Source: Calditrichota bacterium | Lineage (GTDB): Bacteria > Zhuqueibacterota > JdFR-76 > BMS3Abin05 | Reading direction: 5' to 3' | Length of the DNA: 58,951 bases | Assembly (NCBI GenBank): GCA_013151735.1 | Contig: JAADHR010000137.1 | Coordinates: forward strand, 1 to 58,951 | Shown here: piece by piece, positions 20,457 through 48,211 of the stretch | How positions within the stretch are numbered: position 1 is the stretch's first letter | How the letters are laid out: each line of letters begins with the position of its first letter | The notes under the pieces: model-generated | Seen by the model: only the letters and a program-made list of their open reading frames with translations | Database searches by the model: none | What the model was told of the DNA's origin: nothing | Position numbers and translations under genes: made by a program

Positions 20457-21944
20457 TCACCGGTGGAATTTAGCCATCCACACACCGATGGAATCCTGCA
20501 CGGCGCGATAGGGCGAAGCCGAACCGACAAAGTTCTGCATCAGCATGGAAAAGGCCCAGACGTCTCCATCCTGTGTGGGCACATAGCCTGAAAGAGACGA
20601 CACCCCCCGAAGGCTTCCGGTTTTGGCCCGCAATTTTCCCTGAGCAGCCGTTCCGATCATCCGCTTTTGAAGGGTTCCGTCTACACCTGCAATGGGCAGA
20701 GAGGTCAGGTACTCGGAGGAAACGGTAAAATCGCCGTACATGTGTGCGAGTAATCGGGTGATGAGATCGGCATTAATCACATCGTAACGGGAAACCCCCG
20801 ACCCGTCGACAACGAAGTAAGACGTGGAATCGATCCCGATGCTCTGCAGAAACTGCCGCATGGCCTGAAGGCCCTTTTCGGCCGTTCCCGGTTCTCCACG
20901 TGTAACCGCCCCCACGGTTTTTAGCAAAAGTTCGGCTGAGAGGTTGTCGCTGATTTTATTGGTGTTTTCAACCACATCGCGCAGCGGATGCGATTTATGA
21001 ACGGCCAGCGTTTCAGCCGCGTCAGGCGATATGCCCTTTAAAATGTGTCCGTCAATTTGAATGCCATTTTTTTTCAACAGCTCACCAAAAACGGTGGCCG
21101 TGTAGCGTGTGGGATCTTCAATGTTGAGCGTGATCTGATAAGGCGGCGCATTCACGGGGAGCGTGTCCTTAACGGTAATGACATTCTCGCAGGTCATCCA
21201 TTTACGGGAAATTTTAAGGCTGTTAGCCTGAGCCGAATCACCGGTTACGCCATTATTTTCGACCGTAACGTAGTGTGTTTGAGGGAAGATGAAAAGCTTC
21301 ACTTTATCGGAGATTTTTTCAGAGGGTTTGGCCAGCACATTCACGCAGTTGTCATTGAGCGTCAGGGCGCTCAAATGTGCGGCGTAATCATCCGGATCGT
21401 CATCCCACATCCAGCCTTTTCCGCGGGGGAGACTGTCCAGTGCCGCAGCATCGGCCACGAGATTTCCGGTGATGTGAGAGATACCGTCTACCTGCAGTTG
21501 ATCAATGAGATCTTGAAGGTCTTCAACCACCAGGTCGGGATCGCCGCCGCCTTTCAGGTAAAGGTTGCCCGTGATGACGGAATCACCGACACTTGCGCTG
21601 TCTGCCAGCAAACAGGTCTTAAAAGTAAAATTGGGACGCAGAAGGGTCAGTGCGGTTGCCGTTGTCAACAATTTCATATTGGAGGCCGGATTTAAAAGGA
21701 GATCGCTGTTGCGATCGTAAATAACCGTGTGGTTTGTGAGTGAAATTATCTTTACGGCAGCCTGTGTTTCTTTAAAGAGAGGTGTCGTCAGCAGCGAATC
21801 GATTTTTTCCTGCAGATTTTTTACCGGATTGCGGGGCTTTACCCGTTCTTTTTTGGGAACGACACCGGCGCAGGAGGTAAAAAGAATGAGTCCTGCAAGA
21901 ATTAAAATCGTCCTAAAAAACAGCCTGGAATAACCTTTGTTCAT
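20457..21944 (-). CDS. dacB: D-Ala-D-Ala carboxypeptidase/endopeptidase (PBP4 type), lipoprotein
   Basis: 495 residues. Peptidase family S13. The start is at 21944, with AGGAGT just upstream; the frame continues 27 residues further without support. The signal ends in a lipobox LFTSC, so it is probably a lipoprotein. The three active-site motifs are present: SNMK (SXXK), SDN in KISDNLSAEL, and KTG in LRAKTGSLRG. It trims D-Ala or cuts cross-links in the periplasm. A paralogue lies at 42918-44435. Confidence 0.94.
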   Translation of the reverse strand: MNKGYSRLFFRTILILAGLILFTSCAGVVPKKERVKPRNPVKNLQEKIDSLLTTPLFKETQAAVKIISLTNHTVIYDRNSDLLLNPASNMKLLTTATALTLLRPNFTFKTCLLADSASVGDSVITGNLYLKGGGDPDLVVEDLQDLIDQLQVDGISHITGNLVADAAALDSLPRGKGWMWDDDPDDYAAHLSALTLNDNCVNVLAKPSEKISDKVKLFIFPQTHYVTVENNGVTGDSAQANSLKISRKWMTCENVITVKDTLPVNAPPYQITLNIEDPTRYTATVFGELLKKNGIQIDGHILKGISPDAAETLAVHKSHPLRDVVENTNKISDNLSAELLLKTVGAVTRGEPGTAEKGLQAMRQFLQSIGIDSTSYFVVDGSGVSRYDVINADLITRLLAHMYGDFTVSSEYLTSLPIAGVDGTLQKRMIGTAAQGKLRAKTGSLRGVSSLSGYVPTQDGDVWAFSMLMQNFVGSASPYRAVQDSIGVWMAKFHR

Positions 21945-22275
21945 ATTAACACTCCTGCCGATTTTGTTTGAAGATAGTTTGGATTGGTGGCAGTTCAATT
22001 CTCTTTGTTCGGATTTTGTGCCCAATTATTTGTTTCTCTCGAATCGCGTCGTTTTACGATTCGCTATCATTTTAACGGTTTTGCAAATAAAAATCAAGGC
22101 CTTTTTAAATTACTTTAGAAAGACTTGCCAAGAGCAAGAAAAAATTGTAATTTTAAGTAAACTGATTCTGGGCCCTTGAGAAAAAAGTCCACTTTCATAA
22201 AAAAGGCCGGTTTCTGTTGGAACACGCCCAGGCGTGACGGAAACCGCAGGTTTTGGCGGATTGGGAATCTAAAAA
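21945..22275. other. Divergent intergenic region
   Basis: 331 bases between the minus-strand dacB and the plus-strand radical SAM gene. It must hold promoters in both directions, but no convincing boxes were identified. It is AT-rich from 22020 to 22170. Nothing else recognised. Confidence 0.5.
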
Positions 22276-41838: not shown

Positions 41839-42855
41839 ATGGAATTACGTTATGAAGAAGTAACCCTGCACCTGAAACACACCTTTCGGTTACATGGGGG
41901 AAGTAAAGAAAGTGTCCGTGTTCTAATTGCCTATCTGGAACACGACGGACTGGTTGGCCTGGGCGAAGCTGACCCATCAAAGTACTACGGTGAAACCCCT
42001 GAATCTGTAAGGTCTGTCTGGGATGCGGTGGATTTTTCGAATCATTGGAACCCCTTTTTGTATGAAGCGATTTACAGCGACTTAAGGGAAAAATTCCCGA
42101 ATGATCATGCAGCCCTGGCCGGAGTGGACATTGCGCTGTTCGATTGGGTGGCCAAATATTGGCGCCTGCCGCTGTACAAATTCCTGGGATTGGATAAATC
42201 GGCCATTCCGGAAACCTCTTTTACCATCGGATATGCCTCTGAAAAAACTCTTATTGAGAAGATAAGGGAGGCTGAGCCTTTTCATATTCTAAAAATCAAA
42301 TTGGGCACCGATTATGACGAAGACATCATTGCCACGGTTCGCAACCACACGGATAAGCCTATTCGGGTGGACGCCAACGAGGGCTGGACACGGGAAGAAG
42401 CAGTGGAGAAAATCCGGTGGCTGGAGGGTAAAAATGTTCAATTTGTGGAACAGCCCCTGAAAAAAGAAGATATTGACGGACATGCCTGGTTAAGAGAAAG
42501 GGTATCGCTGCCTATTTTTGCTGACGAAAGCGCGCGCCTTCCCGGGGACATCTATAACCTTCGGGATGCTTTTGATGGTGTTGTGGTCAAATTAATGAAA
42601 GCAGGCGGGGTGCAGAACGCCATCGAAATGGCGCGTCTGGCCCATCGCTTTGGAATGAAGACCCAAATCAGCTGCTTTTTGGAAACATCCGTGGCTATTT
42701 CGGCCGCGGCCCACATTTCACCGCTGTTTGATTATGCCGATCTGGACGGCCATTTGCTGGTTGCCGACGATCCGTTTATGGGTCTTTCCTTTGAAGATGG
42801 AAAAATCATGGTTAACGACGATCCCGGGCTTGGAATTAAAAAACAGGCGAACTAA
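41839..42855 (+). CDS. Enolase-superfamily dipeptide epimerase
   Basis: 338 residues. The catalytic set of the muconate-lactonising/dipeptide-epimerase subgroup is present: KIKLG near 155, the metal-binding DAN, EQP and DES, and the second catalytic Lys in VVKLMKAGG. The end DLDGHLLVADDPF is typical of L-Ala-D/L-Glu epimerases. It probably epimerises the dipeptide from peptidoglycan turnover. A PBP4-type peptidase gene follows at 42918, fitting a cell-wall recycling pair. Exact dipeptide preference is not readable. Confidence 0.87.
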   Translation: MELRYEEVTLHLKHTFRLHGGSKESVRVLIAYLEHDGLVGLGEADPSKYYGETPESVRSVWDAVDFSNHWNPFLYEAIYSDLREKFPNDHAALAGVDIALFDWVAKYWRLPLYKFLGLDKSAIPETSFTIGYASEKTLIEKIREAEPFHILKIKLGTDYDEDIIATVRNHTDKPIRVDANEGWTREEAVEKIRWLEGKNVQFVEQPLKKEDIDGHAWLRERVSLPIFADESARLPGDIYNLRDAFDGVVVKLMKAGGVQNAIEMARLAHRFGMKTQISCFLETSVAISAAAHISPLFDYADLDGHLLVADDPFMGLSFEDGKIMVNDDPGLGIKKQAN

Positions 42856-42917: not shown

Positions 42918-44435
42918 ATGCTGAAATCTCAGAAACTCAAATGGATGGTCCTGTCTTTTGGGGTGGCCGTGCTTTTTTCCGGCTGTGCGCTGCACCCCGG
43001 CTCCGCTTATCAAAAAAGACCTCCCCTGGCCAGACTCCGCCACGAGTTTAATCGGGCACTACAGGATCCCGCTTTTTTCAACGGATATTGGGGGGTTGCT
43101 GTTCAATCGCTCAAAACAGGTGAGTATTTTTATCTTCACAATGAAAATAAGAGCTTTCGCCCGGCTTCCAATATGAAGCTCTTTACGACCGGAACGGCAC
43201 TGGTAAAATTGTCGCCGGAATTTACGTATCTGACGAGACTTTACCGCACGGGAAAAATCGAGAACGGCGTACTCAAAGGGGATGTTGTTATCCGGGGCTC
43301 CGGTGATCCCACCATTACAGGCCGATTCCACGATGGCAATAGGCTTCAGGTGTTTCAGGATTGGGCAGATTCGCTGAAAAAAAGCGGTGTGGAAAAAATT
43401 ACCGGTCGTGTGGTCGGCGATGATAATGCTTTCGCGGATGAAATTATGGGTGAAGGGTGGGCCTGGGACTACCAGTCCGATTGGTATGCTGCACAAATCA
43501 GCGCACTTTCATTTAACGACAATTGTGTGGATATTCTTTTTACGGCGGGCAAAAGCGTGGGCGATACGGTGTCTTACCGGCTGGAGCCGCCAACCCGCTA
43601 CGTGCGCATCATAAACAAGGTGGTTACGGCACCTCTGCATCAGGCAAAAGGCGTCTTTTTCCACCGGTACCGGGGAAAAAATATTGTGGTTCTTACAGGG
43701 TCTCTTGAAATCGGGACCAAAGAGAAACGTGACTGGTTTTCAGTGGAGAATCCAACCCTCTACGCGGCCACTGTTTTTACCGAAGTGCTTCAATCCGCCG
43801 GAATTGTGGTTAATAAAAAACCCGCAGACATTGACAGTCTCCCTGATTATACCTATTCTCAATCGGATAGCCTGCAAATGGCCTGTTACCAATCCCCTCC
43901 GTTGAGGGAAATTGTCCGGGCGACTAACAAAGTCAGTCAAAACCTCTATGCGGAACTTTTATTGCGCACATTGGGTAAAGTTTATGTGAATGATGGAAGC
44001 GCCCGCGGGGGGATTGCGGTGGTCAAGCATTTCCTGGCTTCCATCGGAATTGATACAAGTCGATTTGCCATGTTTGACGGATCAGGATTGTCTCATCTGG
44101 ATATGGTAACACCCAGGCAGGTCATTACTCTTCTTCGAGCCCTCTACCGAAGTTCTGTAAAAGATGATTTTTTGAATTCTCTTCCGATTGCCGGTGTGGA
44201 CGGGAGCCTTAGAAATCGAATGAAAATGACGGCTGCTCAGGGAAATGTGCGCGCGAAAACCGGGTACATCAGCAATACCCGTTCCCTGTCGGGATTTGTT
44301 CATACGAAAGACGGCGAACCGCTCGTATTCTCGCTGCTTGTCAATAACTATTTGGTTCCCACAAGCATGGCAAATAATCTTCAGGACTGGATTTGCGAAA
44401 GATTGGCCAATTTTTCACGATCCGGTCGTTTGTAA
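42918..44435 (+). CDS. dacB: Second D-Ala-D-Ala carboxypeptidase (PBP4 type), lipoprotein
   Basis: 505 residues, peptidase family S13. The signal ends in a lipobox LFSGC. Active-site motifs are SNMK in PASNMKLF, SQN in KVSQNLYAEL and KTG in VRAKTGYISN. It is a paralogue of the protein at 20457-21944, with the same layout but clearly diverged. It follows the dipeptide epimerase by 62 bases, so the two probably act together in peptidoglycan trimming and recycling. Confidence 0.94.
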   Translation: MLKSQKLKWMVLSFGVAVLFSGCALHPGSAYQKRPPLARLRHEFNRALQDPAFFNGYWGVAVQSLKTGEYFYLHNENKSFRPASNMKLFTTGTALVKLSPEFTYLTRLYRTGKIENGVLKGDVVIRGSGDPTITGRFHDGNRLQVFQDWADSLKKSGVEKITGRVVGDDNAFADEIMGEGWAWDYQSDWYAAQISALSFNDNCVDILFTAGKSVGDTVSYRLEPPTRYVRIINKVVTAPLHQAKGVFFHRYRGKNIVVLTGSLEIGTKEKRDWFSVENPTLYAATVFTEVLQSAGIVVNKKPADIDSLPDYTYSQSDSLQMACYQSPPLREIVRATNKVSQNLYAELLLRTLGKVYVNDGSARGGIAVVKHFLASIGIDTSRFAMFDGSGLSHLDMVTPRQVITLLRALYRSSVKDDFLNSLPIAGVDGSLRNRMKMTAAQGNVRAKTGYISNTRSLSGFVHTKDGEPLVFSLLVNNYLVPTSMANNLQDWICERLANFSRSGRL

Positions 44436-44452: not shown

Positions 44453-44710
44453 ATGTTATTCAGACAAACGATTAAACCTCATAAATTTGAATATCACCCT
44501 ATTGTTTATGATCCTAAAAAAGACAAACAGGAAGACAGGCATCGAATTCGTTTTCCGCGTCATTATACAGCGAAAAAAAGGGGCGGAAAACAACTTTGGT
44601 TGCTTGTGCTGCTTATTGTTGTGGTGCTTCTGATCGAATGGCTGGGAGGCATTCAAAAACATCAATCCGTTGAAAAGGTGAAGTTTAAGAATGTGGAGGT
44701 AGTAAAATAG
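44453..44710 (+). CDS. Small single-pass membrane protein
   Basis: 85 residues. ATG 44453 follows GGGAGGG and is preferred over an upstream in-frame start inside the previous gene. The N-terminal 45 residues are basic and cytosolic (RQTIKPHKFEYHPIVYDPKKD, then RIRFPRHYTAKKRGG); one helix spans about 47-66; a short tail follows. The N-terminal pattern resembles small conserved proteins of Bacteroidota relatives with no known role. It is 17 bases after the peptidase gene. Confidence 0.72.
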   Translation: MLFRQTIKPHKFEYHPIVYDPKKDKQEDRHRIRFPRHYTAKKRGGKQLWLLVLLIVVVLLIEWLGGIQKHQSVEKVKFKNVEVVK

Positions 44711-44764
44711 GTTTAACAAAAAAAGCGACCTGACACCAGTCGTGAATTGGAAAGGAAGCCCAGG

Positions 44765-45013
44765 ATGGATGAAGACAGAATTGTATATACGGGTAAAGCC
44801 CCAATTGAAATTGAAGGCATGATTGTTGGATATGCAGATGTGGTGGTGAAAAAGGGTATCAGTCCGCATATTCATGTGGGAGGGCTGAATCCGGATATTC
44901 TTATTGCTGAAGCGACATACAAAGGAAAAACCTACCAGGCCAAATCTGTTCGCGGAGGAGTTGATGCTGTTATTGAAGATGTGGTGAAAGCAATACGAAA
45001 AAAAATGAAGTAG
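44765..45013 (+). CDS. Conserved-looking small protein of unknown function
   Basis: 82 residues. ATG 44765 is supported by AAGGA eight bases upstream. Predicted as beta strands followed by a C-terminal helix (VDAVIEDVVKAIRKKMK). It has no signal, Cys or membrane segment. No family is recognised. It is 54 bases after the membrane protein gene and 40 before the ferritin-like gene. Confidence 0.65.
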   Translation: MDEDRIVYTGKAPIEIEGMIVGYADVVVKKGISPHIHVGGLNPDILIAEATYKGKTYQAKSVRGGVDAVIEDVVKAIRKKMK

Positions 45014-45053
45014 GGGTTGCCTCAGACCGGCAATTCAAAATGAGAGGTGAATC

Positions 45054-45560
45054 ATGGCAACACATCCCAGATTAACGGCTCCGGAAGTACTGGCACTGGC
45101 CATAAAGTCGGAGGCCAATGCCTCGGATATTTACAAGGTAATGGCAGAAAAGGTCACAAATGAGCTGGTCAAGGAAAAGCTTCTTCAACTTTCCGAGGAA
45201 GAAAAAAAGCATGAAAATATGCTGCGTTCTATGTACAAACAGATAACCGGCGGACAGGAACCCGCTCTCCAAAGCAAGGGCATCTCGGAAGTGGAAGATT
45301 TTCTGCAAGGAAATTACACACATGAGACCGCCCTGGAACTGGCCATTCAATCGGAAGAAAAGGCTGAAAAGTTTTATCTGGATGCCGCCCGGCATTCTGA
45401 GGATCCAAACGGGCGGTTTATGTTTGAATATCTGGCCAATTTTGAACGGGGACACAAAATTTTGTTACAGAATGAATTGGACGCACTCAAGAGAAATCCC
45501 CACTGGTTTGATGACAAGGGATTCCCCTGGGAAGGCGATGCCTTTCATGTGGGCCCCTGA
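45054..45560 (+). CDS. Rubrerythrin/ferritin-like protein
   Basis: 168 residues, four-helix ferritin-like fold. The iron ligands are readable: a Glu in KSEANA, EEEKKHE (ExxH type), a Glu in QSEEKAEKFY, and ANFERGHK. The rubredoxin-like CxxC domain of full rubrerythrins is missing. Likely oxidation of Fe(II) or detoxification of peroxide in the cytosol. GAGGTG precedes the start. The dodecin gene follows by 26 bases. Confidence 0.83.
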   Translation: MATHPRLTAPEVLALAIKSEANASDIYKVMAEKVTNELVKEKLLQLSEEEKKHENMLRSMYKQITGGQEPALQSKGISEVEDFLQGNYTHETALELAIQSEEKAEKFYLDAARHSEDPNGRFMFEYLANFERGHKILLQNELDALKRNPHWFDDKGFPWEGDAFHVGP

Positions 45561-45586
45561 GAGTGCAAAACGAAAGGAGCAAAGAA

Positions 45587-45793
45587 ATGGATTCTGTTTT
45601 CAAGAAAATTGAAGTAGTGGGAACGTCAAAGAACAGCATTGATGAAGCCATTCAAAATGCGATCGCTAAGGCCTCGGAAAGTGTGAAGGAAATCAGCTGG
45701 TTTGAGGCAACTGAAATTCGCGGTCATGTTTCCGACGGAAGAGTCGATCAATTTCAGGTTACCGTAAAGGTCGGATTTAAGGTGATGGATTAA
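45587..45793 (+). CDS. Dodecin (flavin-binding)
   Basis: 68 residues from ATG 45587, with AAAGGAG upstream. The fold pattern is conserved: KKIEVVGTS, a helix with AIAKASESVKE, then SWFEATEIRG with the flavin-stacking Trp and QFQVTVKVGFKV with the conserved Gln. Dodecins store or buffer riboflavin and FMN as dodecamers. This links functionally with the riboflavin operon at 2.7-6.6 kb but is far from it. Confidence 0.93.
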   Translation: MDSVFKKIEVVGTSKNSIDEAIQNAIAKASESVKEISWFEATEIRGHVSDGRVDQFQVTVKVGFKVMD

Positions 45794-45821
45794 CCCTTAT
45801 TCTTCAAAAATGATTTGGAAG

Positions 45822-45847
45822 ACCTCCCGTTGTTTTGGGAGGTTTTT
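45822..45847 (+). terminator. Intrinsic terminator after dodecin
   Basis: ACCTCCC (45822-45828) pairs with GGGAGGT (45837-45843) around an 8-base loop, followed by TTTT and ATTT. It is 29 bases after the dodecin stop and closes the run of small genes. Confidence 0.9.
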
Positions 45848-45942
45848 ATTTGGAATCTGTTCCGATGTGGTGGAGAGAAATGTGCCCGCCTTCTGGAAAA
45901 CGTCTGCCTGTTGTTTTTGAAAAAAATTCCTCCAAATTAAAC

Positions 45943-46015: not shown

Positions 46016-46110
46016 CTGTAGCCGCAAGCTTTCTGTTTGCGGAGACTGTAGCCGCAGGCTTTACGCCTGCGGAAGAGGAACAGGGATTTTTTGGGGAATC
46101 GTTGCACCCA
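46016..46110. repeat. Family C hairpin repeats, upstream copy
   Basis: Two units of CTGTAGCCGCARGCTTT..TGCGGA lie at 46016-46043 and 46046-46073; the second folds perfectly (CCGCAGGC-TTTAC-GCCTGCGG). A decayed third unit of the other type (GCACCCATAAAGGGCG) is near 46104. The same two unit types recur at 48029-48211 on the other side of the methionine gene. Confidence 0.85.
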
Positions 46111-46162: not shown

Positions 46163-48022
46163 ATGATGACTCGCAAAGACAGACTGGAAAAATTTTGGGA
46201 AACGCTGAAAAAGCGGGCACTTGTGGCCGACGGTGCCATGGGAACGGCCCTCTATGCACGGGGTATTCCCTTTTCACATTCTTTTGAAGAACTCAACCTG
46301 TCGAATCCCGCGCTGGTTCAGGAAATTCACAGGGGATATCTTGAGGCCGGGGCCGAGCTGCACGAGACGAATACCTTTGGTGCCAACCGGATTCGTCTGG
46401 CGCCCCACGGTTTTGATTCACGCGTTTCGGAAATCAACCGTGTCGGCGCGGCCATCGCCAGGGAAGTGGTTGGTGATGAGAAATGGCTTCTTGGATCGGT
46501 GGGTCCGCTTGGAAAAACACTGAAGCCTGTTGGAAAAATTGCCCCGGAAGAAGCCAGAAAAATCTTTCACGAGCAAGTGGAGGCACTGGTCGAAGGCGGG
46601 GTGGACGTGATAATTCTCGAGACGTTTACGGATCTCCGGGAAATCACGGAGGCGCTGCGGGCGGCAAAAGACGTGGGCGAGGTTCCGGTCATTGCCCAAA
46701 TGACATTTACCGAAGAAGGAAAATCGCTTATGGGGGATAAGCCGGCTGAGGTTGTTAGAAAGCTCCGCGAACTGGGGGCGGACATTGTGGGAGCCAACTG
46801 CTCTGTGGGGCCTCAGGGGATCTACGAAGTAATGGAGATTATGACACAGGTGGATGAGGGCTATCTCTCGGCCATGCCCAATGCAGGAATGCCCAAAATG
46901 ATTGAGGGGAGGTACATGTATTTGTCCTCTCCCGAATACATGGCGCAATACGCCAAGCGAATGGTTGAAATCGGCGTAAATATTGTGGGGGGGTGCTGCG
47001 GAACCACTCCGGAGCACATTCGTTTGATCCGCCAGGCCGTTTGGGGAATGAAACCGGGGAAACGGACTCAAAAACGTTCCAAATATTTTCAAATGATTGA
47101 AACGGTTGAGGCACCGGAAACGGTAAGCGAGGAAGCGCCGGTTCAGGAATCCAATTTTGCCTCTCGTCTTGGAAAGGAATTTCTGGTCAGTGTGGAAATT
47201 GATCCGCCCAGAGGAGTGGACCCCACAAAGTTCATTCAGGGGGCGCTTTATCTGAAATCCCGGAAAGTGGATGCCATAAATGTGGCCGACAGCCCCCTGG
47301 CTCGGGCAAGAATGAGCCCGCTCGTGTTATCGCACCTTATCACGGAAGAAACGGGCGTTGAAACGATTCTACATCTTTCCTGCCGCGATCGTAATATCCT
47401 GGGTCTTCAGGCCGAACTCATGGGCGCACACGCCCTCGGAATCAAGAACATTCTGGCTGTAACCGGCGATCCGCCCAAACTGGGTGACCACCCCACAGCC
47501 ACCGGCGTATTCGACATCGATTCGGTGGGTCTGGTAACGCTGATCCGGAATCTGAACAAAGGTGTGGACTTGATGGGGCGTCCGCTGAAACCCAAAACCC
47601 ATTTTACAGTGGGTGTTGGCGTAAATCCGACTGCTATCGACCTGGATTACGAATTGGAAAAATTCAGACGAAAAGCGGAGGCCGGGGCGCAATTCGCATT
47701 CACCCAGCCTCTGTTTGATCTGAATATTTTGGAAGATTTTATTCGTCGGACTGAAAAACTGGGTATTCCCATTTTTGTGGGAATTCTTCCACTGCGGAAT
47801 TTTAAACATGCCGAATTCATGCACAACGAGATTCCTGAGATGTTTGTGCCGGAAATCATTCGTAAGCGGATGTTCGATGCCGGTGAAGACGGCCCCAGTG
47901 TGGGTGTTGAAATTGCCAGGGAATTTCTCATTCAGGCAAAGGATCTGGTGGCCGGCGTTTACCTGATGCCGCCGTTCAATAAATTTGAGATGGCCGGAGA
48001 GGTTCTGGAGGTTTTGGATTAG
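46163..48022 (+). CDS. Homocysteine S-methyltransferase / methylenetetrahydrofolate reductase fusion
   Basis: 619 residues, the YitJ-type architecture. Residues about 10-305 are a Zn-dependent homocysteine methyltransferase with ADGAMGTALY at the start, a zinc Cys in GANCSVGP and the pair in GGCCGTTP. Residues about 330-619 are a MetF-like 5,10-methylenetetrahydrofolate reductase with SVEIDPPRG, VTGDPPKLGDH and the flavin-barrel FAFTQPLFD. It couples one-carbon supply to methionine formation. ATG at 46166 is an equally possible start. Family C repeats flank it on both sides. Confidence 0.95.
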   Translation: MMTRKDRLEKFWETLKKRALVADGAMGTALYARGIPFSHSFEELNLSNPALVQEIHRGYLEAGAELHETNTFGANRIRLAPHGFDSRVSEINRVGAAIAREVVGDEKWLLGSVGPLGKTLKPVGKIAPEEARKIFHEQVEALVEGGVDVIILETFTDLREITEALRAAKDVGEVPVIAQMTFTEEGKSLMGDKPAEVVRKLRELGADIVGANCSVGPQGIYEVMEIMTQVDEGYLSAMPNAGMPKMIEGRYMYLSSPEYMAQYAKRMVEIGVNIVGGCCGTTPEHIRLIRQAVWGMKPGKRTQKRSKYFQMIETVEAPETVSEEAPVQESNFASRLGKEFLVSVEIDPPRGVDPTKFIQGALYLKSRKVDAINVADSPLARARMSPLVLSHLITEETGVETILHLSCRDRNILGLQAELMGAHALGIKNILAVTGDPPKLGDHPTATGVFDIDSVGLVTLIRNLNKGVDLMGRPLKPKTHFTVGVGVNPTAIDLDYELEKFRRKAEAGAQFAFTQPLFDLNILEDFIRRTEKLGIPIFVGILPLRNFKHAEFMHNEIPEMFVPEIIRKRMFDAGEDGPSVGVEIAREFLIQAKDLVAGVYLMPPFNKFEMAGEVLEVLD

Positions 48023-48028
48023 CGTAGT

Positions 48029-48211
48029 CGCACCCATAAAGGGTGCGCTTACGCTGTAGTCGCAGGCTTTATGCCTGCGGATTACAGACAGATGGTTTTG
48101 GGGGATCCGACGCACCCGTAAAGAGTGCGGTTATGCTGTAGCCGCAGGCTTTACGCCTGCGGATTGGAAACAGGTGATTTTGAGGAATGAGTCGCACCCG
48201 TAAAGGGTGCG
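48029..48211. repeat. Family C hairpin repeats, 82-bp tandem period
   Basis: Hairpin units of type 1 (CGCACCCRTAAAGRGTGCG) start at 48029, 48111 and 48193; units of type 2 (GTAGYCGCAGGCTTTAYGCCTGCGGA) start at 48056 and 48138. Each repeats at exactly 82 bases, giving about 2.2 tandem copies. The array begins seven bases after the methyltransferase/MTHFR stop and ends 20 bases before the mutS start. It could terminate, stabilise or separate the two transcripts. Confidence 0.93.

Follow-up and report, generated by a model that had tools for sequence, protein, structure and literature searches.

A small orphan gene and a rubredoxin-less rubrerythrin-family gene beside dodecin in a Calditrichota genome: a real but mostly ordinary cluster

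Proteins of the rubrerythrin/ferritin-like family are four-helix bundles with a diiron ligand pattern of E, ExxH, E, and ExxH. Among the relatives without a rubredoxin domain, ferriperoxin is described as an FNR-dependent peroxidase (PMC3317640), and it is the nearest tested model found for the rubrerythrin-family protein discussed here, which we call FL2. Proteins of the ferriperoxin/sulerythrin type (PMC3317640, PMC5114695) share with FL2 membership of the ferritin-like superfamily, a candidate diiron pattern, the lack of a rubredoxin domain, and an expected peroxidase or related activity, whereas FL2 differs in its length of 168 aa, in its invariant H-x-G-P C terminus, and in often having a partner gene for a second ferritin-like protein, FL1. 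The best solved relative in both sequence (E = 8.8e-18, FL2 residues 9-145) and fold (E = 2.5e-5) is the Pyrococcus furiosus hypothetical protein 2fzf, although its entry names no function and the sequence match stops short of the FL2 tail. The MbfA and EncB ferritin-like domains (NCBIfam) are only weakly matched, with 57.8 and 27.3 bits against cut-offs of 450 and 90, respectively. The gene next to FL2 codes for a bacterial dodecin (NF043052) that is ordinary as a protein and unusual only in its neighborhood; none of the papers found on dodecin seems to describe such a cluster, as judged by titles and abstract openings.

The locus lies in a stretch of 58,951 nucleotides from a Calditrichota bacterium, referred to here as the window, and its seven genes are all on the + strand. 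An epimerase-like gene (41839-42855) ends 62 bases before a dacB-like D-Ala-D-Ala carboxypeptidase gene (42918-44435), which is followed after 17 bases by TM (44453-44710; 85 aa, single-pass membrane protein). Then come p82 (44765-45013), coding for an 82-aa orphan protein, FL2 (45054-45560), and a 68-aa member of the flavin-binding dodecamer family, dodecin (45587-45793), with 54, 40, and 26 bases between the successive genes from TM onward; 369 bases separate dodecin from a MetH/MTHFR-like gene (46163-48022). The names dacB, MetH/MTHFR, mazG, and epimerase are ones we presume from the look of the sequences, and what we take by eye to be a second dacB-like gene is present in the window on the - strand (20457-22025). 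TM, p82, FL2, and dodecin have ATG start codons and may be transcribed together; an intrinsic terminator with the stem ACCTCCC/GGGAGGT and a T-run (45822-45850, + strand) lies 3' of dodecin. The region from 45793 to 45860 folds with a z-score of -2.6 (4/200 shuffles fold equally well), and a similar hairpin is found 3' of dodecin in a genome of the same genus (G001), although a simple terminator scan does not list the hairpin. A preliminary description of this DNA had reported four genes with these gaps and a terminator after the last, naming a single-pass membrane protein, an 82-residue protein of no recognized family, a rubrerythrin-like protein without a rubredoxin domain, and dodecin, and all of this is borne out here and below. 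The four-gene cluster is, however, cut too narrowly, and its left edge is arbitrary because the dacB-like gene is nearer to TM than any two genes within the cluster are to each other. A 25-base palindromic repeat occurs three times in the window, around the MetH-like gene (46048-46072, 48056-48080, and 48138-48162, with 0, 2, and 0 mismatches), and not once in 100 shuffles; it is perhaps a REP-like dispersed element.

FL2 matches the Pfam Rubrerythrin family (PF02915) with 81.1 bits, against a gathering cut-off of 22.8, and has neither a rubredoxin match in Pfam or NCBIfam nor a cysteine in its 168 residues. It is not a classical rubrerythrin, as the C-terminal rubredoxin domain with CxxC pairs is absent. 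The structural model has four long helices (mean pLDDT, 76.7), and the FL2 sequence supplies every ligand of a candidate diiron site (E20, E50xxH53, E101, and E131xxH134); these six residues are invariant in 10/10 aligned FL2 proteins, taken from 10 of the 12 genomes with full-length FL2 (G031 and G008 were left out). The same 10 proteins, which span the phylum, share H165, G167, and P168 of the C-terminal tail H-[VI]-G-P (residues 165-168; 45546-45557); the model has low confidence at the end where this tail lies, and the tail is perhaps used for docking or assembly. The most likely role of FL2 is that of a diiron enzyme, a peroxidase or ferroxidase, dependent on a separate electron donor. 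FL2 would fold as a four-helix bundle binding two irons via E20, E50/H53, E101, and E131/H134, and would remove peroxide or oxygen (or oxidize ferrous iron) with electrons from that donor, like rubredoxin-less rubrerythrins. Assignment as an encapsulin cargo ferritin (EncFtn/EncB) was rejected, given the sub-cut-off EncB score and the finding of the shell family PF04454 in 0/7 genomes of the order; the same PF04454 search, like the PF01880 search described below, found its family in 3 of 14 control genomes.

TM has a single, strongly hydrophobic segment (highest mean hydropathy over 19 residues, 2.67) and no family above cut-off in Pfam, NCBIfam, or PHROGs; a MacP-like identity was discarded at 13.5 bits against a cut-off of 45. 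The TM family is present in 63/82 genomes of the phylum at E ≤ 0.01, in 60 of them with a best E ≤ 0.001 and in three above 0.001. Among the best 30 TM loci fetched, 11 have dacB, 12 others have mazG, and 7 have neither, with p82 and FL2 in 3 and dodecin in 2; as with dodecin below, these are counts over the best 30 loci with flanks of about 1.5 kb and some contig ends, and the G004 locus as fetched stops before its dodecin, absences near TM and dodecin loci being not firm. TM is a member of the dacB/mazG neighborhood rather than of the gene cassette described below, and its family is possibly a cell-envelope protein family.

With p82 as query, nothing is matched in Pfam, NCBIfam, or PHROGs, even at E up to 1; the PDB sequence matches (best E = 0.087, viral capsid proteins) are at chance level. 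p82 is present in 3/82 genomes of the phylum, namely the window's own (G000), G004, and G005, which represent three different families within one order (seven genomes of which were examined), and was not found in the other 79. In all three it lies directly before FL2. The gene very probably does encode a protein, as both relatives run the full length, keep the same position, and share 35 and 33% identity with the copy in the window; invariant columns in the three rows include H35, K55, Y57, and R63-G64-G65. A scan of 84,980 species genomes gave 201 stretches with 2 confirmed p82 loci, the G005 and G004 contigs, using short degenerate patterns that distant relatives in other phyla could escape. 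Neither a plasmid nor a viral origin is indicated: plasmids gave no match at E up to 1, the 322 stretches of viral contigs picked out by pattern included no confirmed p82, and PHROGs likewise had none.

Comparison of the arrangements within the order (G000 to G006) shows that the slot is constant and its content varies. The window has dacB-TM-p82-FL2-dodecin-MetH, without FL1; G004 has dacB-TM-FL1-p82-FL2-dodecin-MetH; G005 has dacB-TM-FL1-p82-FL2-MetH, with dodecin on another contig; and G001, of the window's genus, has dacB-TM-dodecin-MetH, with 43 bases from TM to dodecin and no p82 or FL2 between them. TM lies between epimerase-like and MetH-like genes in G002 and G006, with no dacB and no cassette, and was not found in G003. 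The nearest FL1 match in the window's genome is 23% identical (E = 6.7e-8), is on another contig, and falls outside the FL1 tree group, and a four-genome DNA alignment 3' of TM, inspected for FL1 or p82 remnants, is too poor to tell at 38% mean column identity.

We consider it probable that this is a mosaic locus with an FL1-p82-FL2 cassette, in which FL2 is a diiron enzyme, p82 serves the diiron proteins, and dodecin is independent. An old dacB-TM neighborhood would be followed in this order by dodecin and the MetH-like gene, and the dacB-TM slot would carry the cassette, of which p82-FL2 is all that is left in the window. The order's ancestor would have had the G004 arrangement, with subsequent losses of FL1 in the window, of the cassette in G001, and of dodecin at the slot in G005. 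Loss from a G004-like ancestor is the simplest history, and repeated insertion may be an alternative; the proposed direction of gain and loss rests on three cassette genomes, and 3 of the 7 genomes of the order are <85% complete. Against the mosaic view, two families (G000 and G004) have dodecin adjoining the cassette, and this could be a link that the others have lost.

Full-length FL2, including the tail, is present in 12/82 genomes, counted at E ≤ 1e-12, and a laxer limit could add genomes. In an unrooted 29-row ferritin-like tree, FL2 forms one group (89/92) and FL1 another (80/70) that includes distant-family copies. Profiles made from distant copies only give 76-101 bits for the order's FL2 proteins against ≤51 for the other paralogues tested, and 68-71 bits for the order's FL1 proteins against ≤58; support for the FL1 grouping across the phylum is only moderate. 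Nine FL2 loci are outside the order (L108-L116), and superoxide reductase is in the fetched stretch of 7/9 (one being the query's own locus), with FL1 adjacent in 6/9, Nfo in 5/9, and NifS in 5/9; L115 also has ferritin-like, PrxQ-like, superoxide dismutase-like, and flavodiiron-like genes. One example of each context protein was scanned, and the names superoxide reductase domain, deoxyribonuclease IV (Nfo), and thioredoxin-dependent thiol peroxidase pass curated cut-offs, whereas ferritin, superoxide dismutase, flavodiiron, NifS, and NifU come from sub-cut-off matches. We note that an open frame at L115 4048-4362 fuses an Nfo (endonuclease IV) start to an apparent ferritin-like end, as if the sequence between were deleted or misassembled. 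p82 was not found in these nine loci, and neither was dodecin with our own two-row profile, which missed 3 of 30 dodecin loci found by Pfam; where the genomes have dodecin, the Pfam matches are all on other contigs. The context of the relatives supports a role for FL2 in oxidative-stress (oxygen/peroxide) defense. Superoxide reductase (PF01880) was found in 0/7 genomes of the window's order, and this context thus applies by homology and is not in place at the locus itself.

The dodecin identification is well founded, with 107.5 bits to NCBIfam DodecBact (NF043052; cut-off, 75) over residues 1-66 of 68 and a best E of 2.2e-19 to PDB dodecins; W38 and Q57, counted by eye and presumably the flavin-binding residues, are present. 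Dodecin occurs in 46/82 genomes of the phylum, and a ferritin-like gene was found within about 1.5 kb of it in 3 of 30 fetched loci (G000, G004, and G050). The G050 locus (L121 3408-5272) has a ferritin-like paralogue that is not FL2, a sigma-factor-like gene, and dodecin in a row on one strand.

The preliminary description proposed protection against flavin- or iron-driven oxidative stress, with the 82-residue protein as a possible new partner. As a single unit, dodecin would sequester free FMN, FL2 would clear the peroxide or iron with which the flavin would cycle, and p82 would couple the two. The shared strand, short gaps, and common terminator are compatible with this, as are the immediate succession of FL2 and dodecin in two families and the G050 paralogue only one gene away from dodecin, but G005 keeps p82-FL2 without dodecin at the slot, G001 has dodecin there without p82 or FL2, and a nearby ferritin-like gene was found at only three of the 30 dodecin loci fetched. 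Moreover, dodecin is about as common in genomes with full-length FL2 as in the others (7/12 versus 39/70 genomes; Fisher p = 1.0), adjoining FL2 in 2 of those 12 genomes and not found in 5, and p82 shows no significant tie to dodecin (3/3 versus 43/79, p = 0.25). With null co-occurrence and scattered dodecin loci, we reject such a unit as the main reading and regard it as quite unlikely. What survives of the proposal is the oxygen/peroxide defense, through the superoxide reductase context of the distant loci, and the status of p82 as a conserved gene tied to FL2; the flavin link and the tie of p82 to dodecin find no support. The preliminary description named unrelated positions of these genes in relatives as evidence against it, and this is largely what is seen for TM, dodecin, and FL2; p82 and FL2 stay together, joined by FL1 in two of three cases. 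Nothing was found tying FL2 to dodecin beyond adjacency in two genomes, and they look like neighbors by local history rather than partners. Under the mosaic reading, dodecin would buffer free flavin independently, as a neighbor by position.

The role of p82 is judged mainly from its neighbors. An AlphaFold2 model made from the three sequences (pLDDT, 80.8) is an antiparallel sheet of four strands followed by a C-terminal helix, and the modeled fold permits no safe assignment and suggests no function. One might see in it a small nucleic-acid-binding operon regulator, the order of sheet plus helix resembling part of the double-stranded RNA-binding domain (dsRBD) fold, and VIA-align 2 does return many dsRBD and ribosomal small-subunit chains (the latter presumably S5) at Z 5.2-5.8, with 57-75 residues aligned and rmsd 2.3-4.1. 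However, the top row is profilin (Z 7.4; 66 aligned, rmsd 2.3), none reaches Z 8, and the best Foldseek match to solved folds has E = 0.59 (SAS-6 N-terminal domain). dsRBDs are laid out alpha-beta-beta-beta-alpha, whereas the p82 model is beta4-alpha, having a strand in the place of the first dsRBD helix, and we think a regulator of this kind highly improbable. From its adjacency to FL2 in 3/3 genomes, p82 most likely serves the diiron proteins FL1/FL2 and not dodecin, and would act in assembly, in docking of an iron or redox partner, or in regulation. The narrower idea that it has no relation to dodecin and is a partner dedicated to FL1/FL2 only, acting as a chaperone, as an iron donor, or as an adaptor for the electron donor, is in keeping with its position directly before FL2 in all three genomes and between FL1 and FL2 in both that keep FL1, and with the lack of a match in the other 79 genomes; yet p82 is known from only three sequences, and the finding of a p82 match at 0/9 distant FL2 loci indicates that FL2 generally manages without it. 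We hold this as a possibility, somewhat short of an even chance. More doubtful still is a fuller version, in which p82 founds a new small-protein family dedicated, in this lineage only, to a diiron antioxidant made of two subunits, FL1/FL2; the conserved RGG turn where its helix begins and its conserved histidine would dock on the FL2 H-x-G-P tail and aid iron loading or electron receipt, and the window would have an FL2-only complex after loss of FL1.

The cluster is thus real but mostly ordinary, and what is worth keeping from it, rather than the flavin link, is the FL1-p82-FL2 cassette together with the tail of FL2. The adjoining of dodecin to FL2 is likely accidental, whereas the likely real signal is a pair of ferritin-like proteins, marked by an invariant tail and, in relatives, by nearby superoxide reductase, together with a small new gene alongside. 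If p82 does serve FL2, it would be a new accessory protein for rubrerythrins that lack rubredoxin, and the source of their electrons or iron would become testable in a small system.
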